Part shown: positions 4,089 through 62,721 of the stretch, one piece after another
Position numbering within the stretch: the stretch's first letter is position 1
How the letters are laid out: each line of letters opens with the position of its first letter
Source of the DNA: Corynebacterium aquatimens
Lineage (GTDB): Bacteria > Actinomycetota > Actinomycetes > Mycobacteriales > Mycobacteriaceae
Direction: 5' to 3'
Assembly (NCBI RefSeq): GCF_030408395.1
Contig: NZ_CP046980.1
Coordinates: 1,612,001 to 1,676,000 of the forward strand
DNA length: 64,000 nucleotides
The notes under the pieces: model-generated
Told to the model about the DNA's origin: nothing
What the model saw: only the letters and a program-made list of their open reading frames with translations
Databases searched by the model: none
Position numbers and translations under genes: made by a program

Positions 4089-5824
4089 CGTTCTCCTTCT
4101 GGTAGCCCCTCTTGCCCCTCTGGTGTTGGTTCCACCGGACCCGAGGGACCTGTTGCAAGGTGCCATTGAGCGGCGCTTTCCAGGCCCTGGTCCCACTGCG
4201 CAAGCTGCGGGGACGGCCCCACGATGGAGGTTCCCAAGGCTTGCACGCGACGCTCCCGCATCAAGGGGATCCACACGGCACGTTGGGTGAGGAACCCGGA
4301 GACGGCATCGCGGGCCTGCTCTGCCGGGAGCGCGCCGGACAACACATCGGCGGCCAACTGGCGAGCCTCGGGCGTGCACCGCTCCCCGCGCGCCGCGGTT
4401 GCGGCAGCGCCAGCAGTCGCCGACGGGGTTGCCGCCCCAGTCGAATCGAAGGCTGGGGTGTTCACGGGAGGTTCCTCGCACGTCAGCATGCTCGCCAGAT
4501 CAATCGGGGAATCCCCGCCCACGCGCCACGCCACAACAGCATCCACGAGGCCTTCGGGCATCCGCCGCCCCACCAAATCCGCATAATCGCTCACCACGGA
4601 CTCAGCCTTGATCCCCTTTTGGTTCAGCGCGTCCACAATCGCCCGGGCTGCCGACATCGCTTGGCCATCGCGGGGGTCAGCGCCGATTCGCAGGGCACGA
4701 TGCTTATCGACGATCCCCTTCAGCGCACTGTCATTTTCAGCGCCAGGGATGAACGTTGCTGCCATCGTCGATGGCAATGCGAGATCGGCACTGCGTCCCG
4801 CGGCGATACTGGCGATCAGCGGGACGTCGATAAGCGAAGCGAGCTCGGCGCGCACAGCAGGATCTTTCAGAATGTCCGAGGTGTCAGAGACGTTGATGCC
4901 CAGTTCTCTCGGGCCGTCCACCATGCGCACCTGGGTTGCGGGAATGAGCTCGTACGTGCGGCGAGTCGTTTCTCCAGGGACGTGATCTAGAAACGCAATC
5001 TGCTTGGAACGGAGCTGATCCGCAGCTTGCTCCGTAGAACGCACATCACTAATACGCACCACATCAATCGCAGCGGGCGCGAAACCCCAGAACCTGTCAT
5101 TGCGGTTCAAGGTAATGGTGCCGCGGCCGCGGTCAACGTCCTGGACCCGGTAGCGGCCGGCGGACGCAGGAATTGTGTCCGACAACGCCGAGGCGAAATC
5201 CGCGCTGTCCGAGGCAAGCAAGTGCGACGGAAGCAAGTGGGTGAAAAGTTCCTGCCAGTGCGCGACCGGTTGGGAAAATAACACGTCTACCGTTTTGCCC
5301 GCCGCACCAGTTACCCGCACGTCAGAAATCGCGTGATAGCCCGCGGCGTTGACCACACCCGGCGTCACGCGCATACCGCGCCACAAGTAGACGAAGTCTT
5401 TGCCCGTAATCGGCGTGCCATCGGACCACTGCGCGGCATCCGCGATGTCGTAGCGCACCGCAAACTGCGTTCCGCTCGGAGCGTCATACGGAACCGGGAT
5501 TTCCCGCACGTCACGGGTCAGGTTGGTGTCCCGTACCCCGTTGTAGAACACGCTCGGTAAAACTAGATCAGCGACGGCTTGTACGGTCGAGTTTTCGTCG
5601 GCAAGCACGTGCGGGTTAAGCCCATTCTTCAGCGGCTGCGAGGCAACCTGGACTTGCGAGCGCTCAGCGGGTGCGGCAGGCGGCTCGTTCTCACGCGCGG
5701 ATGTGGGGTCGTCCGTTTGCTCCACGATCGGTGGCGGACCTGGGTCGGCCGTGCACGCAAAGCTCAGCGCCGCTGGAATCACGACCGCCATGGCGGCGGT
5801 GGTGGTACGGCAGCGGCGCTTCAT
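4085..5824 (-). CDS. lpqW: LpqW-like lipoprotein of the SBP_bac_5 family
   Basis: A 579-residue predicted lipoprotein: arginine-rich n-region, hydrophobic core and lipobox LSFAC with the lipid-bearing Cys at residue 24, then a Pro/Glu-rich spacer and an oligopeptide-binding-type (SBP_bac_5) fold. No permease or ATPase genes adjoin it. Its place between typA and mshB matches Rv1166 (LpqW), which governs the balance of phosphatidylinositol mannosides and lipomannan/lipoarabinomannan at the membrane; that role is inferred from position and fold. The chosen ATG has GGGAGG only two bases upstream, unusually close, but it is the only start giving a proper signal peptide. It lies 11 bases after typA. 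Confidence 0.82.
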   Translation of the reverse strand: MKRRCRTTTAAMAVVIPAALSFACTADPGPPPIVEQTDDPTSARENEPPAAPAERSQVQVASQPLKNGLNPHVLADENSTVQAVADLVLPSVFYNGVRDTNLTRDVREIPVPYDAPSGTQFAVRYDIADAAQWSDGTPITGKDFVYLWRGMRVTPGVVNAAGYHAISDVRVTGAAGKTVDVLFSQPVAHWQELFTHLLPSHLLASDSADFASALSDTIPASAGRYRVQDVDRGRGTITLNRNDRFWGFAPAAIDVVRISDVRSTEQAADQLRSKQIAFLDHVPGETTRRTYELIPATQVRMVDGPRELGINVSDTSDILKDPAVRAELASLIDVPLIASIAAGRSADLALPSTMAATFIPGAENDSALKGIVDKHRALRIGADPRDGQAMSAARAIVDALNQKGIKAESVVSDYADLVGRRMPEGLVDAVVAWRVGGDSPIDLASMLTCEEPPVNTPAFDSTGAATPSATAGAAATAARGERCTPEARQLAADVLSGALPAEQARDAVSGFLTQRAVWIPLMRERRVQALGTSIVGPSPQLAQWDQGLESAAQWHLATGPSGPVEPTPEGQEGLPEGER

Positions 5825-5835
5825 ACCCTCCCAGG

Positions 5836-10228: not shown

Positions 10229-10249
10229 GGCCGTCGCTAAGCTTGAAGC

Positions 10250-11317
10250 ATGAACCAACTGCCCTACCCGCTCCTGCCCGCCGCTTCCGCGCGAAGCGTC
10301 ACGGTGAGCGCCCGCGCAGTTGTCCAAGCACTGCTTTTTGACGCCTACGCGCCCGCCCTCGCCGCACTGGATACCGGGTTTGACCAGGTGTTCCGCTCAC
10401 GCGTCCTGCTCGAAGCAGATCCCGTAGTGGGCACGTGGCGGCTGCGCTGGCACGACAATGCCGGGTTGCTCGGTGGCGACGGAGCCATCATCGGCGAGGT
10501 CGCGGCCTCCGACCGGGAGTCATTTGCCACGCTCACAACCATCTTTGACGCCGGCTACGCCCCGCTCGTCCACGCCACGTTCACCGTGCGTTCTTCCACC
10601 GGTGTCTTCGAGGTTGATCTCCACCTTCCTCCCGCCGAACTGGCGGTACCGCGCAACAACGTAGCTGCCATGGCCATGGTGGCCTCCCCCGGCGCGAGCG
10701 CCCGAATCAACGTCACGCAGGGCGACTTCACGCCACGCGAACTGGAACGCCTCTCCCCCGGCCACTGGTTTGTCCACCTTTCGCGGGTAGGCAACGCGGT
10801 CGTTGCAACGCTCGACGAGCGCGTACTCGGGCCCGTCATCAAAGACGACGCCGCGGCCATTGCAGCCCTGCTGGATTCAGTCGAATCACTCGGCCCCGAC
10901 GGCGACGCCCACGACGTTGCGGCGCACTGTTTTCTGTTTCCCGCCAGCGACGCTGGCGATAGCTCCCCCACCGAGGCCGTCATCGACGTAGGCGCCGGCC
11001 CCTTTTCCCACGTCCCCCCGCTCGTGGCGGAAGCAATCTCCTCCCGCGCGTGGAGCGTGCAGACGCTTGGCGACGGCTCGTATGCCATCACCGTCGACGG
11101 CAACGCCGCCGTTGACGAGGAAGACTACGCAACCCCCAACCCCGAAGCGCGTCCGGTGTTCCTGCCCGCGAACGAGGTGGTCGCAGATGTCGTCGATAAG
11201 CATGAAGAGCTCGAAGAAAGCCGCTACCTCTCCGAGACCGAGCGAGTTGAGCTTCGCCGTGCCCGCAGAGCCGCGAACCCTGATGCTGGCCGCCACCGCT
11301 ACCGCGATGAGGACTAA
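10250..11317 (+). CDS. Conserved protein of unknown function
   Basis: A 355-residue soluble protein I do not recognise. It is rich in Ala, Val and Asp, with no signal peptide or membrane segment, and ends in a charged tail (RRARRAANPDAGRHRYRDED). A candidate -10 TAAGCT at 10238-10243 stands six bases before the ATG, so the mRNA may be leaderless. It carries one copy of the GTCGATAAGC 10-mer at 11192. Confidence 0.6.
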   Translation: MNQLPYPLLPAASARSVTVSARAVVQALLFDAYAPALAALDTGFDQVFRSRVLLEADPVVGTWRLRWHDNAGLLGGDGAIIGEVAASDRESFATLTTIFDAGYAPLVHATFTVRSSTGVFEVDLHLPPAELAVPRNNVAAMAMVASPGASARINVTQGDFTPRELERLSPGHWFVHLSRVGNAVVATLDERVLGPVIKDDAAAIAALLDSVESLGPDGDAHDVAAHCFLFPASDAGDSSPTEAVIDVGAGPFSHVPPLVAEAISSRAWSVQTLGDGSYAITVDGNAAVDEEDYATPNPEARPVFLPANEVVADVVDKHEELEESRYLSETERVELRRARRAANPDAGRHRYRDED

Positions 11318-11377: not shown

Positions 11378-12808
11378 ATGTTTGTTAGGAAATTCGTCGC
11401 ACCCACCGCTGCAGCCATCGCGCTGGCCGTGGGATCCGCAAGCACCGTAGCTGTCATTCCACCCACGGTTGCGATCGCCCAAGAGGCCGACGGCGTGAAC
11501 GCACCGAGCCCCATCGATGCCGCGCTGAACTCCTCCAAGCAGGTGGAAAGCGCGTTCGGCTCGGCTCAGGACACTTCGAGTGCCTTCGGCCTGAACTTCT
11601 GGGAGATCCTTTACAAGATCCTCGACTTCTTCGGCTTGGCCAAGTACTTCGAGAACTTTCCGTTCTTCGCCCTTCCAGGATGGAAGAACCCTGACCGCGA
11701 AACGCGGTATATCCCTAAGGCAGAGACGGTTTCAGAGGGCCTCGTCGTTACGCTAATTGGTGACTTGTTGGGCCCCGGCGTGAAGTACATCATGGGCCTG
11801 GGCGCGGCTGACCTAGGCATGATGGCACCCCTGAACGACGACGGCGAATTCGCGATCATCTTCGGGGACTCGTTCACCGGCGGCAAGTTCGGCGAAGGCC
11901 AGTGGTTTAGCCCCACCGGCATGGTTGGGGAGAAAGATTCATCCGGCACCATTCGCGTCACACGCCCGCTTAACGACGGCATCCGTGCCCAGCCCCTCAT
12001 TGGCTATTACAGCAACATCGACATGACCACGTTCATCCCATCAGACGTGATCAACCTGGACGGGACCCTGTACATGCAGGGCATGTGGAACAAGGGCCTT
12101 GGCAACGTCACCGGCACCGAAATCTGGAAGTCCACCGACAACGGCAAAACGTGGGAGTCAGTCTGGAAGGGCGACCAGTTCCACCTCAAGGGCATGGGCA
12201 ACCTGTTGAGCTGGGAAAAGGGCCCCGACGGCTACATCTACGTGGTGTCTTCCCAGTTCAAGCGCCAGGATCCGGTGTACCTGTCCCGCTTCCGCCCGTG
12301 GAACATCGACGACCGCGACCTCTGGGAGAGCTACGACCCCAAGACCAAGACCTGGGGCAGCAAAGCCACACCGATTCTGCGCAGCTACGTCAAAGCCGGC
12401 GAGATGAACCTGCGCTACATCCAGGGCCACTGGGTACTGGCTATGTTCAATGAGGGCACCGCGTCTATTGAAGTCCGCGTCTCTAAGGAGATCGCAACCA
12501 ACTGGGACTCCATTAAACCCGCCCACGTGGTTGTCGCGGGACGCGGCGGTTGGTACGCGCCGCAGAACGCGCACAACTTCACGCAGCTCTACGGCGGCTA
12601 CATTGTTCCAGGTTCCACCCTGGACAACCTCGATCTTGTTGTCTCCCAGTGGAACACCGGCGACAACTCGCGCTACATGTCCACGCAGTTCAACGTCAAG
12701 GGCCTAGACAAGTTCTTCGGCATCGAATCCGCCCCGGTCTCCCACACAACGGTGGGCAACCAGGACGTCATCGAGGTTGCGGCAGAGAACGTCACACCGC
12801 GCGACTAG
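11378..12808 (+). CDS. Secreted DUF4185 protein, candidate GH183 endo-D-arabinanase
   Basis: A 476-residue secreted protein with a signal peptide cleaved near AIAQ-EA (about residue 37), then a DUF4185 beta-propeller with repeated blades (GAADLGMMAPLNDDG, IFGDSFTGG, TDNGKTWESV, GRGGWYAPQNAH). From family knowledge, DUF4185 enzymes were reclassified as GH183 endo-D-arabinofuranases acting on mycobacterial arabinan, with Rv3707c as the M. tuberculosis member. A role in trimming the arabinan of the cell envelope is therefore a reasonable inference. It is likely monocistronic, with an AGAAGAGG site before the ATG and a repeat hairpin immediately after the stop. Confidence 0.75.
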   Translation: MFVRKFVAPTAAAIALAVGSASTVAVIPPTVAIAQEADGVNAPSPIDAALNSSKQVESAFGSAQDTSSAFGLNFWEILYKILDFFGLAKYFENFPFFALPGWKNPDRETRYIPKAETVSEGLVVTLIGDLLGPGVKYIMGLGAADLGMMAPLNDDGEFAIIFGDSFTGGKFGEGQWFSPTGMVGEKDSSGTIRVTRPLNDGIRAQPLIGYYSNIDMTTFIPSDVINLDGTLYMQGMWNKGLGNVTGTEIWKSTDNGKTWESVWKGDQFHLKGMGNLLSWEKGPDGYIYVVSSQFKRQDPVYLSRFRPWNIDDRDLWESYDPKTKTWGSKATPILRSYVKAGEMNLRYIQGHWVLAMFNEGTASIEVRVSKEIATNWDSIKPAHVVVAGRGGWYAPQNAHNFTQLYGGYIVPGSTLDNLDLVVSQWNTGDNSRYMSTQFNVKGLDKFFGIESAPVSHTTVGNQDVIEVAAENVTPRD

Positions 12809-13766: not shown

Positions 13767-14975
13767 TTAGGCGTTGTCGGTGGTAGTTGTATCCGAACCG
13801 TACATGCCTTTGAGGCTTCCGATTCCCAGCGACCCGTCCCCGCGGGAGGGTTCCGTGGGCGCGGCGGCGGGCTGCGAAGCGGGTGCGGCGGCCGGTTGAG
13901 CGGAACCAACGGAAGCCGTTCCGGCGTCCGCTTCCTCCCAGAGGCCGGTGGCCTGGCTCAACGTGATTGCGGGTTGAATCGGGTTGTCCTGGTCATCCTC
14001 GGCATCGATCTCGGCGATGAATTCGTCGCGGGCAAAGTCGAGGATGTTGTCCAGAAACTCGGCCGGCGGCGCGAAGAACAGGCAGCCGGTCAGCGCCGTG
14101 GAGAAGTCCAAGATCCGATCGTGGTTGCCGGGTGGTTCGCCGATGAACATGCGGCGCAGCATCAACTCGGTAATGCGCACGTCGTTGGCGTAGGAGATGA
14201 AGAAAGTGCCCTGGTCACCGGATGCGGTGCCGAAAGCAAGGTTGTTGCGCACGATTTTAAGTTCGTTGCCCTCTTCGTCCTCAATCGTGTTTAAGGCGAC
14301 GTGGGAATTCAGCGGCTTCTCGTCGTCGTCAAGCTCGATGTCCTCTGCTTTTGTACGCCCCACGACGAGCTCTTGGTCGCGGGTGGACAACGCGTCCCAG
14401 GACCGAAGGTCATGGATGTATTTCTGCTCCACGATGTAGCTGCCGCCGGCCCACGGCCCATCCTGGATCAGACCAACCTCCACGGCTTCTTGGCCTGAGG
14501 GGCTCTCGGTGCCATCGACGAACCCTAGGGGATCGCGGAAGTCCAAATAGCGGAAGGCGTGCACCTCATCCGAGCCAGAGATTGCGTCCCCGAGCTCCTT
14601 GGTGATGCGCCGCGCAAGATCAAAGGCGCGGTCAAACTCATCGGCGCGGATGTGGAAGAACAGGTCCCCTGGAGTCGACGGCGCGTGGTGCTTGCCGCCG
14701 GTAAGCTCAACAAACTCGTGGAGCTGCTCCGGCTTGACCTTCTTCGCAGGATCAAAAACGCGATCCCAGAACAACGAACCGATTCCTACCACGCAATTTA
14801 AGTGCGCAGTCGGGTCCCTAAATCCCACGGCGTGGACCAAGCCGCCGAGCTCCTCAAGAATCTCCAACGTCGCCGCCTCAGCGCCGGTGCGGATCGTCAC
14901 CGTGAGGAAGATTGCCGATTTCGACTGCGGCTGCACCACCGTCTGCGACACGTCAGCTGATAGAAAATTACTCAC
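13767..14975 (-). CDS. DyP-type heme peroxidase, encapsulin cargo
   Basis: A 402-residue dye-decolorising peroxidase. The distal GFVDGTE motif is at residues 151-157, and the heme-ligand histidine is probably in NSHVALN. The C-terminus is an Ala/Pro-rich linker followed by DGSLGIGSLKG (about 380-390), the cargo-loading peptide typical of encapsulated DyPs, then a short Thr-rich end. It uses H2O2 to oxidise aromatic substrates inside the shell. The GTG at 14975 is chosen because TATACT (14983-14988) stands seven bases upstream and no ribosome site exists, so the message is probably leaderless; a TTG two codons upstream is the alternative. Confidence 0.94.
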   Translation of the reverse strand: MSNFLSADVSQTVVQPQSKSAIFLTVTIRTGAEAATLEILEELGGLVHAVGFRDPTAHLNCVVGIGSLFWDRVFDPAKKVKPEQLHEFVELTGGKHHAPSTPGDLFFHIRADEFDRAFDLARRITKELGDAISGSDEVHAFRYLDFRDPLGFVDGTESPSGQEAVEVGLIQDGPWAGGSYIVEQKYIHDLRSWDALSTRDQELVVGRTKAEDIELDDDEKPLNSHVALNTIEDEEGNELKIVRNNLAFGTASGDQGTFFISYANDVRITELMLRRMFIGEPPGNHDRILDFSTALTGCLFFAPPAEFLDNILDFARDEFIAEIDAEDDQDNPIQPAITLSQATGLWEEADAGTASVGSAQPAAAPASQPAAAPTEPSRGDGSLGIGSLKGMYGSDTTTTDNA

Positions 14976-15075: not shown

Positions 15076-16575
15076 ATGCCGCATTCCCCGACCCGCTCGA
15101 CCCACTCGCCCCGTTCAGCGTGGGCTGCTCTGTGGACGATGATGCTTGGGTTCTTCATGATCCTCGTCGACGGGTCCATCGTGTCCGTGGCCATCCCCGC
15201 GATCAGCGAATCCTTGGGCGCGACGTACAACCAGGTGATTTGGGTCAACAGCGCCTATCTTCTGGCGTACGCGGTCCCGCTGCTCATCACCGGGCGGCTC
15301 GGGGATCGATTTGGCCCAAAGACCCTGTATATCCTCGGGCTTACCCTGTTCACGGGTGCGTCGGCGGCGTGTGGGCTGGCGTCGTCGATAAGCATGCTCA
15401 TTGGTGCGCGTGCTCTGCAAGGGATCGGCGGGGCGATGGTCACGCCGCAGACGATGGCGGTGATGATCCGCACCTTCAGCCCGCAGCAGCGCGGCAGCGC
15501 GATGGGCGTGTGGGGTGCGGTCGCGGGCGTGGCAACGATCGTCGGGCCCCTCATGGGCGGCCTGCTTGTCGACGGTTGGGGCTGGGAATGGATCTTCTTC
15601 ATCAACGTGCCCGTTGGAATCGTGGGCGTGGCGCTTGCGGCTGTGTACGTCCCGCGGCTGGAACTTACCGCGCGCCGGCTGGATTGGCTGGGCGTAGCCC
15701 TCTCCGCCGTGGGCATGTTCTGCCTGGTCTTCGGCATTCAGGAAAGCGCGGCGCTGGCGTGGGACATCCGCGCGATTGGCCTCATCGGCGCGGGATGCGC
15801 GTTACTGGCGGTGTTCATCGCGTGGCAACGACGCACCGCGCGTGACCCACTGGTGCCCTTGTCGCTTTTCGACGACCGGAATTTCGCGCTCGCCTCAGTA
15901 GCGATCACGACGGTGGGATTTGGGATCACGGCGATGGTCCCGTGGATGATCTACGTGCAGCGGGTCCAAGGCTTCACCCCCACGGAAGCCGCGCTGCTGG
16001 TCCTGCCCGCGGGTGTGGTCTCAGGCGCCGTGTCACCGTTCGTGGGGCGGCTCACCAACACCCGCGACCCCAAGGCCTTCGCCATCGCAGGCTTATCGAC
16101 GACCGGCGCAAGCATCGCTCTCCTAGCCCTCATCGCGGACCCATCAATCGACCCGACATGGATGCTGGCAATCAGCGTCATCAACGGCCTGGGCAACGCA
16201 ATGATGTGGGGTCCGCTGTCGATGATCGCCACCCGCAACCTTGACCCGCGACTAGCCGGTGCCGGGTCCAGCGTGTACAACACCGTGCGTCAGCTTGGCG
16301 CCGTAATTGGCTCTGCCGCGATCGCCGCAATGATGACCGCGCAGCTCAACCGCCAGTTGGGCGCAACGGGGGGCGCTGGTGCTGGTGGTGGCGCTGGCGC
16401 TGGCGCTGATGCGTCCTCAGGTGTCCTTCCGGAAGCCATCCACGAACCTTTTGCTGCCGCGATGAGCGCCACGCTGTGGTTGCCCGCAGTCGTTTTATTG
16501 GCGGGTGCGGCTGTGGCACTATGTTTTGCGCCAACCAAAGCGTGGGGCGCGCACCAGTCCCCGATGGGGAAATAA
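15076..16575 (+). CDS. MFS drug exporter, 14-TM DHA2 (EmrB/QacA) family
   Basis: A 499-residue transporter with about 14 membrane segments. Motif A appears as GRLGDRFGPK and the DHA2 motif C region as GVWGAVAGVATIVGPLMGGLL. It likely exports hydrophobic or cationic compounds using the proton gradient; the substrate is unknown. Before the last segment lies a Gly/Ala linker coded by a simple GGCGCTGGT-type repeat at about 16365-16415. The ATG at 15076 is preferred because TACTCT (15063-15068) is seven bases upstream; another ATG lies at 15070. Transcribed divergently from dyp. Confidence 0.88.
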   Translation: MPHSPTRSTHSPRSAWAALWTMMLGFFMILVDGSIVSVAIPAISESLGATYNQVIWVNSAYLLAYAVPLLITGRLGDRFGPKTLYILGLTLFTGASAACGLASSISMLIGARALQGIGGAMVTPQTMAVMIRTFSPQQRGSAMGVWGAVAGVATIVGPLMGGLLVDGWGWEWIFFINVPVGIVGVALAAVYVPRLELTARRLDWLGVALSAVGMFCLVFGIQESAALAWDIRAIGLIGAGCALLAVFIAWQRRTARDPLVPLSLFDDRNFALASVAITTVGFGITAMVPWMIYVQRVQGFTPTEAALLVLPAGVVSGAVSPFVGRLTNTRDPKAFAIAGLSTTGASIALLALIADPSIDPTWMLAISVINGLGNAMMWGPLSMIATRNLDPRLAGAGSSVYNTVRQLGAVIGSAAIAAMMTAQLNRQLGATGGAGAGGGAGAGADASSGVLPEAIHEPFAAAMSATLWLPAVVLLAGAAVALCFAPTKAWGAHQSPMGK

Positions 16576-18607: not shown

Positions 18608-20800
18608 TTAGACGTAGTGCTCTTCGTACTGGTTGTTGGCCAGGGCGCGCTGCTCAGCCGCGCGCTCGGCACGCAGACGGGCGTTCTCGTTTGGATCTTC
18701 CAAAGCGAGGTTGCGGCGGCGTGCATCGTACACCAAGGTCGAGCCGATCAAAGCCAGCGCAGTGGTGGCCACCAGAACGGCGATGGCGATCCAGAAGGTG
18801 TGGTCCCAGATCCCGTCGGTAGCGCGGACGAACGCGTTACGTGCGTGGCTAATCGGGTGGAGCGGATTCGCGGCAGCCAACGGCGCAGGCAGGGTGGACA
18901 GCGGCCAGACCGCGTTGGCCACAACCAGACCGTAGATGTAGAAGGCCAGGTTGAACACCGAACCAACCAAGCGTCCGAAGGTGATGCGGAAGAACTGGTA
19001 GACGGACGTACCCATCGCGACGTTGAGCAGCAGGACCAGGATCATCGCTGGCCAATTGTCAGGGCGCCAGCCGACGGACGCGGAGATGAACGCAATCAGA
19101 GCAACCAGTGCCAGGTTGATACCAAACGCCGGAGCCCATGCCTTGATCACAGGACCGAAGGCGGTGCGGGAGTGGTCACGGCGACCAACAGCGTGCGGCA
19201 GAAGCATGTTCACAACTGCCATCAGCAGGAAGGAGATCACGATCAAACCCAGCATGGAGAAACCGCTGGAGAGCTCCTGAACCGTGGGGTTCTCCGGGTC
19301 GACGACTTCCTGGGTCGGGTGCAGGTTCGCTTCTTCGAAGACGATCGGCACTGCCATCTGGGTAGTGGATTCGTCCATCCTCTGCACCGTCGGTGCGCGC
19401 TTCGCACCCTCGCCCAGGGCGGTTGCCAGCTGGTTGGAACCATCCTTCAGCTGACCGATACCGTCGGTCAGCTGTACGCCACCTTCACGCAGCTGGCCGG
19501 TACCTTCCTTCAAACGCGTCGTACCATCGTGCAGTTGGAATGCACCGTCAGAAAGCTCACCGGTACCGGCGCGGAGTTCACCAGTACCCGCTTTAAGCTG
19601 CTGAGAACCGTCGATCAACTGGTTCAAACCATTGCGGTACGGCATGTTCGGATCCGCAAGGTTCGCGTGCAGTTCTGCAGTACCAGCCTTGAGGCGCTGG
19701 AGGTCGCTGACGATGTTTTCCGGGTTCGCCGGGTCAAGCTGGCCAACGATGCCCGCAACCTTGTCGGCTTCAGCATGCATGCCGACGGTACGCAGCAGAT
19801 CAATGACCGGCTGCAGCTGGCCAACCGCACCCTGGACGTTCTGCAGAATCGGGATCAGCATACCGGTGAGCTGACCCACACCTTCGTCGATCTGGCGTGC
19901 ACCGTCAGCAAGCTGGTCAGTACCGCCGGAGAGTTCAAGCAGACCGTTGGCAAGCTGGCCCGCACCGTCGTCAAGCTGGCCGGCACCGTCAGAGAGTCGA
20001 ATCACACCGTCTTGCAGCTGCCCAGTACCGTCGTTAAGCTCCCCGGCTCCGTCGTCAAGCTGATTGATGCCATCAACCGCTTGACCCGCGCCCTCCTGGA
20101 GCTGGCCAACACCGTCATCCAGCTGCTTAGAGCCGTCAGCCGCCTGCTTGATACCGTCACCCAGCTCATTCAGGCCGCCGAGGACCTGCTCAGCGTACGT
20201 CTTGGTCACCTCGACCGCGACCTCATTCTGGATCTGCGGGACCAGACCAGAGGTAAGAATCGCACCGTTGGTGCCGTTGTAGTCGTTGAAGTCGAAGAGG
20301 ATCTTTGCTTGCGCCGGATCCTCATCGATCACGGTGACCACGTTTTTAGAGAAGTCCTCCGGGATCGTGATGGTGAACAGGTACTTGCCCTTGAGCAAAC
20401 CGTCAGACGCCTGCTTCGCGTCAACCTCGGTGACGTTGAGGTAATCGCGGCTGGTCAGACCTTCGACGACGTTCTTACCAAAGTTCTCCTCGCCCTCGCC
20501 CTGGTCAACGCCCTTGTCCTCATTCACGATGGCCAGACGCGTGTTGGGCACGGAACCCGTCGGGTCCCACATGGACCACATGTAGATTCCCGTGAACAAC
20601 AGCGGAAGAACCAGCAAAAGAACAATAAGGGTGCGCGCGAACGGCGACAGTGGGCGCCAGTTCAGCGCCTTTGCAATCGGCCCGTGGAAACGCGGTTTCG
20701 TCTGATCATCCGCGTAGTCGTATTGGTACTCCGGATCATAATCGTTGGCTGAAATGCTAGTGCTCAACGCCGACCTCTTTCTGCTGGTGTTTCTGCTCAC
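18608..20800 (-). CDS. YhgE/Pip-family membrane protein with heptad-repeat ectodomain
   Basis: A 730-residue protein: cytoplasmic N-terminus, one membrane segment near residue 60 (TLIVLLLVLPLLFTGIYMW), a large extracytoplasmic domain, and five to six C-terminal membrane segments, as in ABC-2-type YhgE/Pip proteins. Between about residues 210 and 460 the ectodomain carries many DGAGQLDDG-type repeats forming a long helix. Relatives are phage receptors or parts of type VII-like export; the role here is unknown. The GTG at 20800 has no ribosome site; an in-frame TTG at 20767 has AAAGAGG six bases upstream and may be the true start. Confidence 0.85.
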   Translation of the reverse strand: MSRNTSRKRSALSTSISANDYDPEYQYDYADDQTKPRFHGPIAKALNWRPLSPFARTLIVLLLVLPLLFTGIYMWSMWDPTGSVPNTRLAIVNEDKGVDQGEGEENFGKNVVEGLTSRDYLNVTEVDAKQASDGLLKGKYLFTITIPEDFSKNVVTVIDEDPAQAKILFDFNDYNGTNGAILTSGLVPQIQNEVAVEVTKTYAEQVLGGLNELGDGIKQAADGSKQLDDGVGQLQEGAGQAVDGINQLDDGAGELNDGTGQLQDGVIRLSDGAGQLDDGAGQLANGLLELSGGTDQLADGARQIDEGVGQLTGMLIPILQNVQGAVGQLQPVIDLLRTVGMHAEADKVAGIVGQLDPANPENIVSDLQRLKAGTAELHANLADPNMPYRNGLNQLIDGSQQLKAGTGELRAGTGELSDGAFQLHDGTTRLKEGTGQLREGGVQLTDGIGQLKDGSNQLATALGEGAKRAPTVQRMDESTTQMAVPIVFEEANLHPTQEVVDPENPTVQELSSGFSMLGLIVISFLLMAVVNMLLPHAVGRRDHSRTAFGPVIKAWAPAFGINLALVALIAFISASVGWRPDNWPAMILVLLLNVAMGTSVYQFFRITFGRLVGSVFNLAFYIYGLVVANAVWPLSTLPAPLAAANPLHPISHARNAFVRATDGIWDHTFWIAIAVLVATTALALIGSTLVYDARRRNLALEDPNENARLRAERAAEQRALANNQYEEHYV

Positions 20801-42764: not shown

Positions 42765-42842
42765 TTTAGGTCGTGCTGCAGCGGCGTTAGCGCAGGTGCT
42801 TTGCGACGAATTTGCCGCCCGCCAGTACTACAGTTTCTGGAT

Positions 42843-47296: not shown

Positions 47297-47791
47297 ATGG
47301 ACGAAATCCGCGTGGGCGACGCCGAGCGTTCGGAAGCACTGGACCGGCTGGGAACGCTGTTCGCGGACGGCTACCTGGACGTGGGAGAGTTCGAAGAACG
47401 CACAGGTCAGGCCGCGGTTGCGCGCACGCGCGGGGAGCTTTCAATGCTTTTCGACGACCTCCCGGCCGAACCGGCCACATTGGAGAAGCGGACGGCGTCC
47501 GAGGTCGAACTGGATGAGAAACTCGCAGCGAAGCGGAAGATGGACACCGCGCTCTACACCACCCTCATTGGCGGCTTGGCGGTCTATTTGGTGCTGGAGA
47601 TTGGGCTGGATCTGGACTACGCCTGGGTAGTGTGGCCGGTGGTGGGCGCACTCGCGGTCGCTTGGTACGCCGTCTTCGACATCTCCGACGAGGAAGACGA
47701 GATCCTCGAGGAACTGTTAGAGAAGGAACGTTCCGATCGCGCCGAGCGACTGAAACTCGCCGCCGAGCGACGCAAGGAGCTTGGGAAATAG
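47297..47791 (+). CDS. DUF1707 protein with two TM segments
   Basis: A 164-residue protein. Residues 1-53 are a DUF1707 domain (IRVGDAERSEALDRLGTLFADGYLDVGEFEERTGQA), followed by a linker, two membrane segments at about 80-120, and a charged C-terminal helix. DUF1707 is an actinobacterial module of unknown function, often on small membrane proteins. A GGGAG site stands seven bases before the ATG. The MerR-type dyad in the divergent spacer may control it as well. Confidence 0.8.
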   Translation: MDEIRVGDAERSEALDRLGTLFADGYLDVGEFEERTGQAAVARTRGELSMLFDDLPAEPATLEKRTASEVELDEKLAAKRKMDTALYTTLIGGLAVYLVLEIGLDLDYAWVVWPVVGALAVAWYAVFDISDEEDEILEELLEKERSDRAERLKLAAERRKELGK

Positions 47792-50686: not shown

Positions 50687-50946
50687 ATGAACGACATGAC
50701 CATAGCGCCCGGCCCGGGGATCCCCGACGGTGCGGTCATCGCCGCCGATCTCGCGGAGCGTTTCGCGAAATCGTCGACTCCGGGCGGCCAGGGCGTCAAC
50801 ACGACGGACGGCAAAGTCCAGCTTTCCATCGATGTCGCCGAATGCGCATCGCTTACCGACGCCCAGCGTCACCGTATCTCGCGCAACCTCGAGCACCGCC
50901 TAGACGGCTCCGTCTTTACCGTGACTGCGTCGACTCAGCGGTCTGT
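50687..50946 (+). pseudogene. Truncated second arfB
   Basis: ATG 50687 starts a copy of the arfB at 44185, including the GGQ motif (STPGGQGVNTTDGKVQL), with TAGGCT seven bases upstream, so the promoter was duplicated too. Similarity ends after ASTQRS at about 50946; the frame then runs through unrelated sequence to 51091, inside the ychF 3' end. The basic ribosome-binding tail is lost, so it should be inactive as ArfB. Confidence 0.78.
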
Positions 50947-51102: not shown

Positions 51103-52166
51103 ACCACGTCGCCGTCGGCCATGACGTAGTCCTTGCCCTCCTGGCGGACTTTGCCGTGGGCGCGGGCTTCTGCCATGGAACCGAATTCGTCGAGGTCGTC
51201 GAAGGCGACGATTTCAGCCTTGATGAAGCCCTTTTCAAAGTCGGTGTGGATAACGCCGGCGGCCTTCGGTGCGGTGTCGCCCTTGTGGATCGTCCACGCG
51301 CGCGATTCCTTCGGCCCCGCCGTCAGGTAGGTCTGCAGGCCGAGGGTTTCAAAGCCGGCTTTAGCGAGCGTCGATAAGCCAGGTTCTTCTTGCCCCACTG
51401 CCGCGAGGAGCTCCGCGGCGTCTTCCTCCTCGAGCTCAAGGAGCTCTGTCTCCGTCTGCGCGTCGAGAAACACGGCCTCGGCGGGCGCGACGAGGTCGCG
51501 AAGGGTTTGCTTGCGCGCGTCGTCAGTGAGGACGGCCTCGTCGGAGTTGAAGACGTAGAGGAAAGGCTTGGCCGTCATGAGGTGGAGCTCTTTGAGCAGC
51601 GCGAGGTCAATCTCATTGCTTTTCGACGCGGCGAACAGCGTGCGATCGTCCTCTAGAATCGCCTGGGCTTTCTTTGCCTCGGCGGCGGTGGCTGCGATGT
51701 CTTTGTCCTTGCGGCCTTCCTTCTCCAGGCGTGGCAGGGCCTTCTCAATCGTCTGGAGGTCGGCGAGGATCAGCTCGGTGTTGATGACGGAAATGTCATT
51801 CGCCGGGTCCACTTTGCCGTCGACGTGGATGACGTTGTCGTCGCTAAACGCGCGCACGACCTGGCAGATCGCGTCCGCCTCGCGGATGTTGGCCAAGAAC
51901 GCGTTGCCCATGCCCTCGCCCTCAGACGCGCCTTTGACAATGCCCGCGATGTCCACGAAGGACACCGTCGCCGGCAGGATCTGCGCCGAACCGAAAATCT
52001 CCGCGAGACGAGTAAGGCGCGGATCCGGCAGCTCGACGAGACCGACGTTCGGCTCGATCGTGGCGAACGGGTAGTTCGCGGCCAGCACGTCGTTGCGGGT
52101 CAGGGCGTTAAACAAAGTGGACTTGCCCACGTTGGGCAGACCGACGATTCCAAGGGTAAGGCTCAC
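51081..52166 (-). CDS. ychF: YchF, Obg-family ATPase/GTPase
   Basis: A 361-residue protein: G1 GIVGLPNVGKST at residues 6-17, G3 DIAGIVKGA, and the YchF-specific NxxE-type nucleotide site (FNSDEAVL) that favours ATP over GTP. A coiled-coil insertion and TGS-like C-terminal domain end in the conserved VVEFKFNV. It interacts with ribosomes and stress response. GTG start with TAGGAT eight bases upstream suggests a leaderless message. Its 3' end is the apparent integration site for the island to the left. Confidence 0.96.
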   Translation of the reverse strand: MSLTLGIVGLPNVGKSTLFNALTRNDVLAANYPFATIEPNVGLVELPDPRLTRLAEIFGSAQILPATVSFVDIAGIVKGASEGEGMGNAFLANIREADAICQVVRAFSDDNVIHVDGKVDPANDISVINTELILADLQTIEKALPRLEKEGRKDKDIAATAAEAKKAQAILEDDRTLFAASKSNEIDLALLKELHLMTAKPFLYVFNSDEAVLTDDARKQTLRDLVAPAEAVFLDAQTETELLELEEEDAAELLAAVGQEEPGLSTLAKAGFETLGLQTYLTAGPKESRAWTIHKGDTAPKAAGVIHTDFEKGFIKAEIVAFDDLDEFGSMAEARAHGKVRQEGKDYVMADGDVVEFKFNV

Positions 52167-52284: not shown

Positions 52285-53799
52285 GTGACTTCCGAGAAGA
52301 ACGCTGCCAGCGCCTCCGCCAAAGCGCCCAAGAGCAAGCCCAAAAAGGCACTGACGCGCCACCGCGACGACCAAGCTCCTGCACTGACGCAATCTGACAG
52401 CCCCACCGCCATGGAGGACCTGCAAAAGGAAACTGCCAAGAAAGACGCACCGGAGCAGGTCGCCGCTGAGCACGAGCAGCCTGACCGGGTGGATCGCACG
52501 CTAGTGATCAACGCGTGGATGAAAGCAAGCGCGCTGTTTGCCCTGCGCGCTATCGCCATTCTGATCCTGCTGGGCATCGCGTTCTACCTGATCGGGACGT
52601 TCTGGGGCGGCATCATGCCGATCATCATGGCGTTGATCGTCTGCACCGTGCTTGCCCCGCCAACTGGCTGGATGCGTAAACGTGGCGTCCCAGATGGACT
52701 AGCCGCTTTTATTTCCATGCTGTTGTTCTTCGCGGCCGTGGTCACACTGCTGTATCTGATCTTGCCGGAAATCCGCAGTAAGGCACCCGGTATTGCGAGT
52801 AGCCTCGTGCAGGGAATCCTGCGGCTTGGGGTGTACCTCGAAGGGCCTCCGTTCAACATCGATTTCTCCAAGTTCAACGAAGCTGTTGGGGACATCATGA
52901 CGTTCATTCAGGAGCGTGCTGGGGCGATCGCTGGCGGCGTTTTCTCCGGTATCTCCACCGCGACCAGCGTCATGTTTACGCTGTTCACTATCTTGATCTT
53001 GACGTTCTTCTTCCTCAAGGACGGCCCGAAGTTCCTCCCCTGGGTACGCCGCGCCACGGGCGGTCGCGCAGGCCTTCACGCCACGGAGCTTCTCACCCGT
53101 TCGTGGCAGACGCTCGGCGGCTTCATTCGTGCGCAAGCTATCGTTTCGCTTGTCGACGCGGTGTGCATCGGCCTCGGCCTATTCTTCCTGAATGTCCCCA
53201 TGGCGTTCACCCTCGCCGTGATCACGTTCATGGCGGGCTTCATCCCGATCGTCGGCGCGGTGATCGCGGGTGCATTAGCGGTGATCGTTGCCCTAGTGAC
53301 CAATGACTTTACGACGGCCGTTTTCGTGCTCATCTTGGTCTGCGCCGTGCAGCAGTTGGAAGGCAATATCCTCTCGCCGATGCTGCAGTCCAAAGCGATG
53401 GACCTGCACCCGGTCGTGGTGTTGGTGTCCGTCATGGTTGGTGGCGGCCTGTTCGGCCTGATGGGCGGCTTCCTCGCCGTGCCTGTGGCCGCAATGATTG
53501 CCGTTGCACTGCGGTACATGCAAGACATGATCCGACTCCACTCTGGTGAGATCAGCGCCAAGGACCTCACCTTCGCCACGGACGTGGGCAAGGCACTTGC
53601 CGAAGTGGAGGAAAAGGAAAGCGCGCACAAGCGTCGTGAAATGCTCGCAGATCACGCGTGGACCGCGCCGGAAATCGCCGACCCCTACGCCGAAACAAGC
53701 AAACGCAGCACGCAACGGCCGTTGAGCTGGCGTGACGTTTCGCCGCAGCGCGTCGCTAAGTCTTTTAGCCGCCGCCGCGGGTCTGGGGCGGACTCCTAA
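52285..53799 (+). CDS. AI-2E family membrane transporter
   Basis: A 504-residue protein: a charged cytoplasmic N-terminus of about 75 residues, seven to eight membrane segments with the family motifs (FLKDGPKFLPWVRRATGG; GGFIRAQAIVSLVDAV; GFIPIVGAVIAG; QQLEGNILSPMLQ), and a charged C-terminus. The family exports a range of compounds including AI-2 and sodium/protons; the substrate here is unknown. GTG at 52285 is preferred, six bases after CACAAT; an ATG at 52237 would add 16 residues. Confidence 0.88.
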   Translation: MTSEKNAASASAKAPKSKPKKALTRHRDDQAPALTQSDSPTAMEDLQKETAKKDAPEQVAAEHEQPDRVDRTLVINAWMKASALFALRAIAILILLGIAFYLIGTFWGGIMPIIMALIVCTVLAPPTGWMRKRGVPDGLAAFISMLLFFAAVVTLLYLILPEIRSKAPGIASSLVQGILRLGVYLEGPPFNIDFSKFNEAVGDIMTFIQERAGAIAGGVFSGISTATSVMFTLFTILILTFFFLKDGPKFLPWVRRATGGRAGLHATELLTRSWQTLGGFIRAQAIVSLVDAVCIGLGLFFLNVPMAFTLAVITFMAGFIPIVGAVIAGALAVIVALVTNDFTTAVFVLILVCAVQQLEGNILSPMLQSKAMDLHPVVVLVSVMVGGGLFGLMGGFLAVPVAAMIAVALRYMQDMIRLHSGEISAKDLTFATDVGKALAEVEEKESAHKRREMLADHAWTAPEIADPYAETSKRSTQRPLSWRDVSPQRVAKSFSRRRGSGADS

Positions 53800-55966: not shown

Positions 55967-57205
55967 GTGAGCGAGAAAAGCACACCCGAGTCACCGTGGT
56001 CGGTGGCGAAGGTCAATGAGAATGTTAAGAAGTGGATAGAGCGGTTGGGGTGGCTGTGGATTGAAGGCCAGCTCACCCAGGTCAATATGAAGCCAACGTG
56101 GCGGTTTTCGTACCTCACGTTGCGCGATACGCAACAAGAGGTGAGCGTCGAGCTCACTGCTAACACTGATTTGCTGAGGCGCATGGAGACGCCGCTTCAA
56201 GACGGCGACCGCGTCGTCGTCCGCGGCAAACCAGCGTTTTACGCGGCCCGCGGCAAGTTCTCACTGTGGGTGACCGACATCCGCAGGGTGGGCGAAGGCG
56301 AGCTCCTTGCCCGCATCGAGGGGTTGCGCAAGCAGCTGGCCGCCGAGGGGCTTTTCGACGAATCCCGGAAGAAACCTCTCCCCTACCTCCCGCGCATGAT
56401 CGGCCTGATCACGGGCCGTGGTTCCGCCGCAGAACGCGATGTCATTTCGGTGGCAACGGGCCGGTGGCCGGGAGTGCAATTCCAGGTAATAAACACAGCG
56501 GTCCAAGGCCCCAACACGGTGCCGGAGGTCGTTGAGGCGTTGCGTTCGCTGGACGCCAATCCGCTTGTCGACGTCATCATCATCGCCCGCGGCGGCGGCT
56601 CCGTTGAAGACCTGCTGCCGTTTTCGGAAGAAGCGTTACAGCGCGCGGTTGCCAACGCGCACACGCCGGTTGTCTCCGCGATTGGCCACGAACCGGACAA
56701 CCCCGTGTTGGATAACGTCGCCGACGTGCGCGCCGCTACCCCGACGGATGCCGCCAAGCGCGTCGTCCCTGACGTCGTCGGCGAGTTCGCTCTCATCGCC
56801 GAGGCGCGTGACCGCATGGCCGCGGCGCTGCGCGGCTGGGTTGAGCGCGAACGCACTGGACTGAAAAACGTCCGTTCCCGGCCTGTCATGGCAAACCCGA
56901 TGACGCCAATCACTTTGCGCCGCGAGGAATTAGGTCGCGCGCTCGATGCAATTCGTCGCGACATCGGCCGCATGGTGGCGAATTCGTCGGCCGAGGTTTC
57001 GTCGTTACGCGCACGCGTCTCCGCGTTGGGGCCAGCGCAGACTCTCGCGCGCGGGTACGCCGTGGTGCAGGTTCAACCGCGCGACGGTTCCGAGGCAGAA
57101 GTCGTCACAACCATCGAACAATCACCGCCCGGCGCGCAGCTGCGCATCCGCGTCGCCGACGGTTCCATCACCGCCGCCTCCATGGCGACGCAGCCAGCGC
57201 AGTAA
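55967..57205 (+). CDS. xseA: XseA, exodeoxyribonuclease VII large subunit
   Basis: A 412-residue large subunit: N-terminal OB fold ([24 protein letters not shown]), the catalytic domain with [27 protein letters not shown] and [10 protein letters not shown], and a C-terminal helical region. With XseB it degrades single-stranded DNA. GTG start with GAGGAG upstream; xseB follows 37 bases after the stop. Confidence 0.96.
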
Positions 57206-57242: not shown

Positions 57243-57527
57243 ATGTCAGACAACACTTTTGGAACAGGCACCCCGACCACCGACGTGCAGCCAGACCCCG
57301 CCACGCTCACCTACGAGCAGGCCCGCGCGGAGCTCATCGAAACCGTGAAGATCCTCGAGCTCGGCCAAATGAGCCTCGATGAATCCCTGTCCTACTGGGA
57401 GCGCGGCGAGGCGCTCGCGAAACGCTGCGAAGTGCTTCTCGACGGCGCAACCAAACGCGTCGAAGCAGCCCTCAGCCAGGGCCAGCCAAACGACCCCGAA
57501 GATGCACACAGCCCTGCCGGAAACTAG
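57243..57527 (+). CDS. xseB: XseB, exodeoxyribonuclease VII small subunit
   Basis: A 94-residue small subunit with the family core [48 protein letters not shown], which forms helical coats on XseA. AAGGAA precedes the ATG. Its last four bases overlap the convergent DUF4245 gene, so transcription collision or antisense is possible. Confidence 0.96.
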
Positions 57528-58090
57528 TGCGGAAGCGGGGCGGTGGCCAGGGTTTCGTCGATAAGCGACGTGAACTCTGCGTCTTCCCCCGCGCCCGTGA
57601 CGAGCAAGCGGACGTCGGTGGCATCGACGACCCACAGCGGGCGGATCTTCTCATCGTCGGAGAAGTACACGGTGGCGGTGCGGCCCGCGACGTCCACCGT
57701 GCGCTGCTTGTCGCGGAAATTGCCATCGAAATCTCTCGCGGCGCGGTCGGCCTCAACATCCGTCTGAGTGAGCTGAAGATACCCCTCTTGCGGCGTGACC
57801 CAGCCGACGGCTGGCGCGGGCTGACCTGCAACGATCGACCGCCGCGCGGAATTTGTGACCCACCCCTGCGGCATCTGCGGGAAGCGGACCGGGAAATTCA
57901 TCGCGCGCGCCTCAAGATCCATGAAGGTCTTCGCGTCGACCTCTTGGACCGGGCCATTCTCCGGCCGGCCGGGGTTGAATGAGCACAGGCCGGTGAAACC
58001 CACAGCACCCACCATCGCAATGATGATGACGATGATGCTGATCGTCATGTCCCTTCCGTCCTGGAAAATCCGGGGTTTTTCATCTGCCAC
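57524..58090 (-). CDS. DUF4245 membrane-anchored protein
   Basis: A 188-residue protein: short N-terminus, one membrane segment ([21 protein letters not shown]) and an extracytoplasmic domain ([52 protein letters not shown]). This is the actinobacterial DUF4245 protein usually beside glpX and fumC (Rv1100 in M. tuberculosis). Function unknown. GTG at 58090 has TACTGA nearby; the frame remains open upstream. Confidence 0.82.
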
Positions 58091-58256
58091 GCGGTTCAGT
58101 ATCGCACGAGTGCTTATCGACGGTCGGGGCCACCCTCCAAGGACCCCGTATGAGGGGAGGTATAGCCCACAAAACGGGCATGCTTCCAGTTGCAGTTGAC
58201 CTAAAAGTGACACAATGGGGGGAAACGTTCGACACCACCCAGGAGGGTAACTGTTT

Positions 58257-60753: not shown

Positions 60754-60754
60754 G

Positions 60755-61000: not shown

Positions 61001-61056
61001 AGGGTCCGAATTTCGCGTATCCGGCAGCACGGCACCTAGATCGGCAGGAGCAACTC

Positions 61057-62721
61057 ATGGCAGAACGCGTGAATCGCGCTGACGGACACGACGAAACCGA
61101 GCTTCGGCGCGGTGAAGACGCTCGGGAGGATGTGGACCGCGCGGGTGGCGCCGAGCGCGGCGGCTCCCACGTGGTCAGCCCTGATGAAGCCGCGCCGCAC
61201 GTGGGTTTGGTGTTCAGCGCGTTGCTGATCACGATGTTGATGAGCTCGCTGGGCCAAATGATTTTCTCCACCGCGTTGCCCACCATCGTGGGTGAGCTCG
61301 GCGGCGTGGACCACATGAGCTGGGTGATGTCCGCGTTCATGGTGACCATGACCATTGCTCTGCCGATATTCGGCAAGCTTGGCGACGGCCTAGGCCGCAA
61401 GTGGCTCTACATCACCGGTATCGGATTCTTTGTCATCGGTTCCACGGTGGGTGGATTCGCGGACACGATGGTGGGTCTGATCGTCGGCCGCGCGATCCAG
61501 GGCTTCGGCGCTGGCGGGATGATGGTCAACTCCCAGGCAATCATCGCCGAGGTGGTCCCGGCCCGTGAACGCGGCAAGTACATGGGCGTCATGGGCGCGG
61601 TGTTCGGAATCTCCTCGGTGCTCGGCCCCGTCCTCGGTGGATGGTTCACGGATGGTCCCGGATGGCGCTGGGGGCTGTGGATGAATATTCCGCTCGGGTT
61701 GCTGGCGATGGGGGCGTCGATAAGCGTCTTGCACTTGCGACGCGGTTCGGCGAAGGACCTCCACTTCGATTGGCTGGGCGCGGGTCTTTTGGCGGTGTTC
61801 ACGTCGTGTCTGATCCTGCTGACCACCTGGGCTGGCACCATGTACGACTGGGATTCACCGACGATCATTGGCTTAGGCATCGCCGCGGCGGTGACGGGCG
61901 TCGCCTTCATTTTCGTGGAACTGCGCGCCACAAACCCGCTGATCCCGATGTCGCTTTTCACCAACCGCAACATGGTTCTGACCACCCTGGCCAGCATCGT
62001 GATTGGTCTCGCCATGGTGGGCGTGATGGCGTACCTGCCGACCTACCTGCAGATGGTTCACGCCATGAGCCCCACGAAGGCCGGCCTGATGATGGTGCCG
62101 ATGGTGGCGGGCATCATGTTGACGTCGATAGGCGTGGGCCTGCTCATCGCGCGCACGGGCCACTACAAGATCTACCCGCCGATCGGAATGGCAGTCGTCG
62201 CGCTGGCGACGTGGCTGCTCACGGGGCTCACGCCGGAGACGTCGTTGACGCGGATTGGCGTAGACATCTTCATCTTCGGTTTCGGGCTTGGGCTTGTGTT
62301 CCAGGTTCTGATTCTTATCGTGCAGAACTCGTTCCCGGTGGCCATCGTGGGTACCGCGACGGCAACGAACAACTTCTTCCGCCAGATCGGAATGGCGCTT
62401 GGTGCGTCGCTGGTGGGCACGATCTTCATCAACAACATGCGTTCCCTCATGGAGGAGCGGCTGCCGTCAGCGATCAAATCCATCGGCCCGGACGGCGCGA
62501 AATATGCCGAAGCATTTTCGCCTGACGACGGAGGGTCCGCCGCGAACTCCCTCACCCCTGAACTGGTCGCCGGGCTGCCCGATCCGATTCGGGAGGCGAT
62601 CGTTTCCTCCTACAACGACGGCCTGACGCCGGTGTTCACGGCGATGATCCCGCTGATGATCCTCGCGCTGGTGATCTGCCTGCCGATTCAGCAGGTGAAA
62701 CTGAAGGAAACGGTAGCGTAA
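61057..62721 (+). CDS. MFS drug exporter, 14-TM EmrB/QacA family
   Basis: A 554-residue transporter. A hydrophilic 50-residue N-terminus is followed by 14 predicted segments, with [12 protein letters not shown] (motif A), [20 protein letters not shown] and [28 protein letters not shown] loop rich in Asp/Gly before the last segment is probably extracytoplasmic. Exports lipophilic drugs or metabolites; no substrate can be named. AGGAGC precedes the ATG. Its long leader may include an attenuator. Confidence 0.9.

Follow-up and report, generated by a model that had tools for sequence, protein, structure and literature searches.

In Neisseria, the DNA uptake sequence (DUS) is recognized by the receptor ComP, and neisserial uptake sequences often form close inverted pairs at terminators. 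The available part of PMC3630211 describes eight DUS dialects among the Neisseriaceae, together with five genomes that hold none and one that holds two. In the Pasteurellaceae, the receptor of the uptake signal sequence (USS) has been predicted to be a minor pilin (PMC12616744, in excerpt), and the uptake sequences of both Haemophilus influenzae and the gonococcus show a graded over-representation of mismatched forms (PMC1939737, in excerpt). Here, we describe a motif, CRTCGNNAAGC, from a 64-kb stretch of Corynebacterium aquatimens DNA (positions 1,612,001-1,676,000 of a genome that consists of one contig of 2,524,396 bases), called the window hereafter. The original prediction, made from this stretch, had proposed a chromosome-wide recognition sequence, and the motif was indeed found to be enriched throughout the genome and the genus, conserved at orthologous sites and not driven by codon usage. 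With slightly better than even confidence, we consider it to be a DNA uptake sequence, a 'self' tag of the clade or species that would be read by a Tad-pilus/ComEA/ComEC system.

Nineteen copies of the 10-mer GTCGATAAGC had been listed in the window. All were recovered at the same coordinates and on the same strands, against a chance expectation of 0.08 (100 dinucleotide shuffles, largest count 1), and the ten copies placed between 22.4 and 32.8 kb became nine on recounting. The base 5' of the 10-mer is C in 19 of 19 copies, and TC precedes it in 11 of them. The true unit is longer and looser, namely CGTCGNNAAGC, of which the window holds 53 copies, the 19 copies of GTCGATAAGC being its NN=AT class. 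The 53 sites are listed below with their coordinates, strand and form.

528..538, minus strand, CGTCGTTAAGC
1557..1567, plus strand, CGTCGTTAAGC
4702..4712, minus strand, CGTCGATAAGC, exact
4825..4835, plus strand, CGTCGATAAGC, exact
5596..5606, plus strand, CGTCGGCAAGC
10232..10242, plus strand, CGTCGCTAAGC
11065..11075, minus strand, CGTCGCCAAGC
11191..11201, plus strand, CGTCGATAAGC, exact
11968..11978, minus strand, CGTCGTTAAGC
14324..14334, plus strand, CGTCGTCAAGC
15383..15393, plus strand, CGTCGATAAGC, exact
15564..15574, minus strand, CGTCGACAAGC
15864..15874, minus strand, CGTCGAAAAGC
16091..16101, minus strand, CGTCGATAAGC, exact
19966..19976, plus strand, CGTCGTCAAGC
20029..20039, plus strand, CGTCGTTAAGC
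20050..20060, plus strand, CGTCGTCAAGC
22421..22431, minus strand, CGTCGATAAGC, exact
23027..23037, plus strand, CGTCGATAAGC, exact
24177..24187, plus strand, CGTCGATAAGC, exact
24428..24438, minus strand, CGTCGATAAGC, exact
25086..25096, plus strand, CGTCGATAAGC, exact
25333..25343, minus strand, CGTCGCTAAGC
25777..25787, minus strand, CGTCGATAAGC, exact
26910..26920, minus strand, CGTCGGTAAGC
28530..28540, minus strand, CGTCGTTAAGC
29242..29252, plus strand, CGTCGATAAGC, exact
31641..31651, plus strand, CGTCGATAAGC, exact
32248..32258, plus strand, CGTCGGTAAGC
32743..32753, plus strand, CGTCGATAAGC, exact
36649..36659, minus strand, CGTCGTTAAGC
37758..37768, plus strand, CGTCGTCAAGC
38311..38321, minus strand, CGTCGAGAAGC
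39677..39687, minus strand, CGTCGAGAAGC
41252..41262, minus strand, CGTCGATAAGC, exact
42798..42808, minus strand, CGTCGCAAAGC
44352..44362, minus strand, CGTCGGAAAGC
45764..45774, minus strand, CGTCGGCAAGC
46210..46220, minus strand, CGTCGAAAAGC
46965..46975, plus strand, CGTCGAGAAGC
47026..47036, plus strand, CGTCGAGAAGC
47446..47456, minus strand, CGTCGAAAAGC
50851..50861, minus strand, CGTCGGTAAGC
51369..51379, plus strand, CGTCGATAAGC, exact
51618..51628, minus strand, CGTCGAAAAGC
53148..53158, minus strand, CGTCGACAAGC
56350..56360, minus strand, CGTCGAAAAGC
56563..56573, minus strand, CGTCGACAAGC
57434..57444, minus strand, CGTCGAGAAGC
57556..57566, plus strand, CGTCGATAAGC, exact
58112..58122, minus strand, CGTCGATAAGC, exact
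61377..61387, minus strand, CGTCGCCAAGC
61715..61725, plus strand, CGTCGATAAGC, exact

The layout of CGTCGNNAAGC is 5+2+4, with nine fixed positions around a two-base spacer. In a 464-kb sample of the own genome, made of the window and twenty 20-kb stretches, the CGTCG..AAGC bases are almost invariant and the middle two vary, with A then T preferred. Outside the 11-mer, the flanks show weak preferences only, and no flanking AT tracts were seen around the motif. Among the single-mismatch forms of the sample, CGTCGNNACGC, with C at position 9, stands out most (54 copies versus 12 expected) and is possibly a weakly accepted variant. Three more changes, to G at position 9, to A at position 5 and to T at position 11, give about a twofold excess, and the other mismatches lie near or below an expectation that is inflated by the motif's own words.

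The motif is not palindromic, its reverse complement being GCTTNNCGACG, and this bears on the earlier suggestion of a methylation target. A motif linked to DNA methylation or restriction, of the HIP1-like or the BREX- or type III-like kind, is very improbable. Type I sites have a layout unlike 5+2+4, and restriction sites are normally avoided and not enriched, both of which count against it. Orphan methyltransferases can go along with short motifs of very high copy number, as with HIP1 in cyanobacteria, and the corynebacterial motif is similarly highly iterated and lineage-restricted; HIP1, however, is a palindrome with matching methyltransferases (PMC4390886, in excerpt), so that a methylation motif of this type is a misfit for a sequence that is none.

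Across the own genome, GTCGATAAGC occurs in 518 exact copies (257 forward and 261 reverse), compared with 1+1 for the reversed pattern, which served as control in all genome counts, and CRTCGNNAAGC reaches 1,473 copies versus 73 for its control. In the 464-kb sample, 285 copies of CGTCGNNAAGC were counted (0.61 per kb), where an order-5 model expects 15. The enrichment is thus not restricted to the window, and counting in the complete genome and in related corynebacteria, as had been proposed, showed that it holds genome-wide and genus-wide; a chance or assembly effect in the window was rejected on these same counts.

Codon preference, already doubted in the original prediction, does not explain the motif either. 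Among 307 genes of the sample, predicted with a simple purpose-written finder that covered 79% of it, 81 coding copies of the exact 11-mer were found, whereas 100 within-gene and 100 pooled synonymous shuffles gave means of 3.3 and 2.6 and a maximum of 7, so the counts lie far above a codon-aware expectation. Of the two outcomes that the original prediction had named as refuting it, counts near such an expectation (assessed on the 464-kb sample) and an enrichment limited to the window, neither was observed. In parallel, an unsupervised codon-aware word search in seven own-genome stretches (89 genes) ranked first GCTTnnCGACG, the reverse complement of the motif (60 versus 6.0, z 21), and all 16 words reported for this genome are pieces of the motif. 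The sites do fall in several frames and both orientations, as had been remarked, but most of the 233 sites within predicted genes use one of two registers, L-x-D antisense (123) or V-x-K sense (59), 182 together. Such dominance of two registers would suit an artefact of protein or codon usage. This origin, like a mobile repeat or an assembly effect, is nevertheless hardly credible in view of the shuffles, of the 27 of 107 exact sites that fall outside or on the edge of predicted genes, of the weakly preferred flanks and of the same motif in many separately sequenced species. One sense frame is closed to the AT form because TAA would fall in frame. Since the AT spacer is commoner outside predicted genes (26 of 52 sites) than inside (81 of 233), coding demands probably account for part of the freedom of the spacer.

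The start of the contig was read by eye as dnaA, and the sign of the guanine-cytosine skew flips between stretches at 1.26 and 1.39 Mb. Hand-summed over the 464-kb sample of this one genome, 136 sites lie in leading and 149 in lagging orientation (47 and 60 for exact sites), and forward and reverse sites are balanced in both replichores (53/68 and 81/83). KOPS, the sequences that orient FtsK, are polarised towards the terminus. The corynebacterial motif shares with them that it is short, oriented, non-palindromic and genome-wide, but it is without polarity in this genome, so that the suggested FtsK-orienting role, or that of any other replichore-polarised motif, is contradicted and retains next to no probability.

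The orientation counts also bear on the second explanation and main rival of the uptake sequence, a Chi-like site. Here, the motif would be read single-stranded by a helicase-nuclease of the AdnAB/RecBCD type during end resection, would switch it to recombination and would be spread by selection. Chi of E. coli is strongly leading-strand biased and known Chi sites have 5-8 mostly contiguous bases, whereas our motif shows no leading-strand bias in the genome examined, is longer and splits its nine fixed bases by a two-base spacer. Like the Chi of RecBCD/AddAB, it is non-palindromic, chromosome-wide, conserved and scarce on the plasmids and phage examined, and PDDEXK_1 nucleases were found in 201 of 201 Corynebacterium genomes, including frames of about 1,000-1,200 residues read as AdnA/B-like. 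Against this reading, 42 genomes with less than twice the control count keep the nuclease family, and it is hard to see why an enzyme would be kept without its site; the family is however broad, matching 12 of 14 control genomes, so that retention of AdnAB itself is unproven. Chi sites have been characterised in only five species, according to the available part of PMC8022716. Overall, we regard a Chi-like function as unlikely, though it deserves some weight.

Spacing of the sites is near random (264 gaps, mean 1,502, coefficient of variation 0.92) and their spread is even (92 windows of 5 kb, mean 3.07, variance 2.91). Hairpin or terminator pairs were considered and rejected, close pairs not being in excess. 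An even spread on both strands, together with site conservation and a trait clustered on the ComEC tree (see below), would also be compatible with the binding site of an abundant nucleoid or chromosome-organising protein found in motif-rich clades only. Chromosome organisers usually concentrate near the origin or terminus, and no such concentration of the motif is apparent in the 21 sampled stretches. Moreover, a protein of this kind would not typically have about 1,500 exact 9-base sites, genic as well as intergenic, and so few near-misses, and the scarcity on plasmids would be left unexplained, which makes this alternative rather improbable. Both the Chi-like and the nucleoid-protein suggestions of the original prediction therefore keep a share of probability and fit worse than an uptake sequence, a reading absent from its list.

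As kilobase-scale matches to the own genome are only 67-79% identical, conservation was assessed in closer pairs elsewhere in the genus. Among three sister genomes that align over 80-93 kb at about 95-96% identity, a site of one is intact in the other in 88.0-98.0% of cases, compared with 67-73% of composition-matched windows, and in a fourth pair (15 kb) 11 of 12 sites are kept each way, versus 73% of matched windows; these samples are not independent, because the pairs share genomes and both directions were counted. Divergence amounts to 1.0% at the nine fixed positions, 1.6% in the spacer, 3.6% in the flanks and 4.6% in the background. Within the fixed positions it peaks at position 2 (3.0%), where the dialects differ, and all 11 spacer changes are at position 7.

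In a survey of 201 drawn Corynebacterium genomes, CRTCGNNAAGC reached at least five times the reversed control in 147, with 320 to 2,032 copies and a median of 1,153; of the remainder, 6 genomes show a three- to fivefold and 6 a two- to threefold excess, and 42 stay under twice the control. The strand totals over the 147 rich genomes are 85,153 forward and 85,054 reverse (0.500), which is not a replichore test, and a strand imbalance at p<0.01 was found in none of the 147. Counts for named species (33 of the 39 Corynebacterium loci among 49, six metagenome-assembled ones being left out) were high in C. pollutisoli (1,637), C. senegalense (1,504), C. lubricantis (1,333), C. striatum (1,262), C. 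aurimucosum (1,259), C. minutissimum (1,206) and C. tuberculostearicum (1,009), and low in C. mastitidis (242, control 22) and C. uropygiale (172, control 55). Outside Corynebacterium, 199 genomes of the same order, drawn from 60 genera, were counted; there the motif does not exceed about 2.1 times the control and is in many at or below it, examples being 185 versus 89 (genome G321) and 530 versus 301 (G360). A bimodal presence of the motif was dropped, as it rested on the AT-spacer form and the free-spacer count makes G113, G163 and G174 rich.

Dialects were also observed. The form CATCGRCAAGC is present in 294-508 copies in 11 of the 201 genomes and in at most 66 in the other 190; G143 carries two forms, with 307 copies of CATCGRCAAGC and 54 of GTCGATAAGC. 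A third form, CGTCG[TG]CAA[GT]C, was found in the sampled G048, and spacer preferences vary among sampled genomes. In the motif-poor G148, G162, G014, G039, G133 and the pooled G041/G062/G120 clade, sampled at 80-180 kb, where a rarer dialect could escape, no other dialect was detected by the unsupervised codon-aware word search, the top words having z 6-8 versus 21 in the own genome (G000). The motif-poor G054 gave a weak TGACGCCAC word (13 versus 1.9, z 7).

Some other words came up in the sampled genomes. In G054 (loci L219, L222-L226), GGTGGCGTCA, GGCGTCACTA and AATGTCGTTAGA are raised and are perhaps small intergenic repeats. The palindromic word ATGCACGTGCAT of G133 (L113-L116) was rejected as a dialect, as its 16 counts over both strands, or about 8 places, all come from the first 80 kb and a further 60 kb gave none; it is local and probably a local repeat family. 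G111 (L076-L080) contains ATCGGTGGCAT-type words (7-11 versus 0.2-0.8 expected) beside the CATCG dialect, and G151 (L117-L120) a CRISPR-like repeat array whose words were counted about 51 times in the sampled stretches.

On a tree of ComEC, the motif state changes 4 times, compared with 13.4 when shuffled, and is therefore clustered; 11 of the sampled genomes form one motif-poor group. The tree holds 40 of 41 rows, G194 being left out for its split frame, and among its 22 'null' rows are four genomes at 2-3 times the control (G132, G062, G041 and G120). The order of motif gain and loss is unsure because of the long branches.

The motif is scarce on the plasmids examined. Together, five plasmids from C. 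aurimucosum, C. striatum and C. tuberculostearicum carry 4 copies over 123.7 kb, where about 53 are expected from the 0.42-0.45 per kb of assemblies of the same named species, the strains not always being the same, and most of these plasmids share one replicon type and are thus not independent. A plasmid stretch of C. kefirresidentii has 2 motifs in 50 kb. Base composition does not account for this, since the reversed controls (5 in 173.7 kb) resemble those of chromosomes. Phage BFK20 has 1 motif in 43 kb, which is weak evidence because motif density was measured for the plasmid species and not for the host of BFK20. In the window, the original prediction had noted that no copy lies inside a metal-ATPase island, and none was found between 32,753 and 36,649. 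The stretch 32754-36648 encodes, by names given by eye from the translations, an ArsR-like regulator, a metal P-type ATPase and an FAD-oxidoreductase-like frame. Over about 160-175 bases, its start is 81-91% identical to plasmid genes from Paenarthrobacter, Cryobacterium and three Corynebacterium species, and the stretch looks like an acquired island.

Taken together, the motif is short, split, non-palindromic, sharp, orientation-neutral in the one genome tested, chromosome-wide, dialect-forming, restricted to the genus within its order, conserved and scarce on the plasmids examined, and these features match the uptake sequences of the Neisseriaceae and Pasteurellaceae better than the other known genomic motifs considered. 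As with the DUS of the Neisseriaceae, it is about 10-12 bp long and non-palindromic, occurs in hundreds to thousands of copies, forms clade dialects, is missing from some genomes and is found in two dialects in one genome (PMC3630211, as far as available). It differs from DUS by its two-base internal spacer, and it belongs to another phylum and cell envelope, with a Tad/Flp pilus in place of type IVa; its counts are below those of most neisserial genomes listed in the same excerpt. With the USS of the Pasteurellaceae it would share the character of a genome-wide self tag with dialects, while its sequence is unrelated, AT tracts were not seen and a mismatch series graded as in H. influenzae (PMC1939737, in excerpt) appears nearly absent.

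In natural transformation, such a tag would let a cell prefer the DNA of its own kind. Free tagged DNA would be bound by a surface receptor, for which a minor Tad/Flp pilin or ComEA are candidates, and the pilus would then draw it through the mycomembrane and wall, after which it would pass ComEC as a single strand and recombine into the chromosome. If tagged fragments enter more often, tags born by mutation would therefore spread by recombination and accumulate chromosome-wide, in both orientations where coding allows, while plasmids and newly acquired islands would stay free of them. New dialects would arise when the receptor shifts its specificity, and the tags would erode once specificity or transformation itself is lost. 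The mycomembrane may be the reason for a selective gate. We give even chances to the wider proposal that, in corynebacteria, a Tad/Flp pilus crosses the mycomembrane and selects CRTCGNNAAGC DNA, with dialects bordering gene exchange, which would be the first uptake code of Actinobacteria. Unlike in the Neisseriaceae, the uptake function and the receptor are proposals from sequence. The data show the motif with its features and the tad and comEA-comEC genes, whereas uptake of DNA by the cells, a role of the motif in it and the nature of the reader are inferred.

The machinery for such a route is present in the own genome. A tad cluster that looks complete lies within positions 203,001-223,000 (G000:C1:203,001-223,000, L121; L121:8570-15406), encodes CpaE-like, TadA, TadB, TadC, Flp, TadE-like and TadF-like proteins and adjoins a helicase gene, and comEA-comEC-holA were found in L122, with comEA-comEC at L122:7742-9922. 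TadA and ComEC were named by family-model matches and the other tad and com genes by position and reading of the translations. In Micrococcus luteus, transformation requires tad genes, and its authors suggest that Tad-dependent transformation may extend to other actinobacteria (PMC4322843, in excerpt); the term 'uptake sequence' is absent from the texts of PMC4322843 and PMC6667448.

Several observations weigh against an uptake sequence. To our knowledge, known uptake sequences are confined to the Neisseriaceae and Pasteurellaceae. The open-access literature, among the matches listed and in the parts available, gave no report of natural transformation or of the motif in Corynebacterium. Three Corynebacterium genomes figured in a published survey of spaced motifs, whose available part gives only CRISPR-derived pairs for them (PMC5217627). 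Unlike for DUS, close inverted pairs are not in excess in the own-genome sample, and a graded mismatch series appears nearly absent from the 464 kb, with an expectation inflated by motif words. Motif and machinery do not co-vary, because TadA (matched in 198 of 201 genomes at E<=0.001 and above the family cut-off in 192) and ComEC (in 200 of 201) are near-universal, including in motif-poor species; at a loose threshold, the TadA model also matches 13 of 14 unrelated control genomes. By E-value, six motif-rich genomes fall below the TadA cut-off, with no match in G075 and weak ones in G021, G101, G112, G113 and G119, all of them drafts of 30-380 contigs except G112. Finally, a signal of the receptor was looked for and not found, as Flp, TadE-like and TadF-like proteins from 21 loci show no pattern of charge or presence by dialect, the soluble parts of the TadE/TadF-like ones being mostly neutral or acidic.

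The others below the TadA cut-off are G010, G024 (motif-poor) and G092 (328 versus 88), and among these nine genomes only G010 (1 contig) and G112 (2) are nearly closed. TadA, ComEC and PDDEXK_1 were accordingly rejected as discriminators of the motif state, all being near-universal. A TadE match is missing in two of seven motif-poor loci (G039, G054), and the motif-poor G171 has no ComEA within 5 kb of ComEC. Counter-cases are the motif-rich G043, without a match to the helix-hairpin-helix end of ComEA, and the low-motif G200, without a ComEC match. Broken competence genes as the cause of motif poverty were set aside, the cases being too few to count as evidence.

Regarding ComEC itself, an in-frame TGA interrupts the gene in the low-motif G194 (L208; 161 versus 69 for the control). 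The frame measures 654-810 residues from stop to stop in 11 of 20 motif-poor loci (L200, L202-L204, L206, L212-L217) and about 480-640 in most motif-rich ones, with L089 (697) and L098 (741) as exceptions; phylogeny alone may account for the longer frames.

If the motif is an uptake sequence, a self-selective and hitherto unrecognised gene exchange would operate in a genus of common bacteria of skin, nose, gut and soil with some species of medical or industrial interest, and it would have come to light solely through its mark in the genomes. Uptake sequences would then have evolved beyond two proteobacterial families, plausibly since corynebacteria also possess an outer permeability barrier, and the dialects would form a testable species barrier to gene flow. 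In practice, the right tag may help DNA to enter cells that are hard to transform. Even with another reader protein, the motif is a very strong unexplained genome signature, whose dialects give a direct route to that reader.

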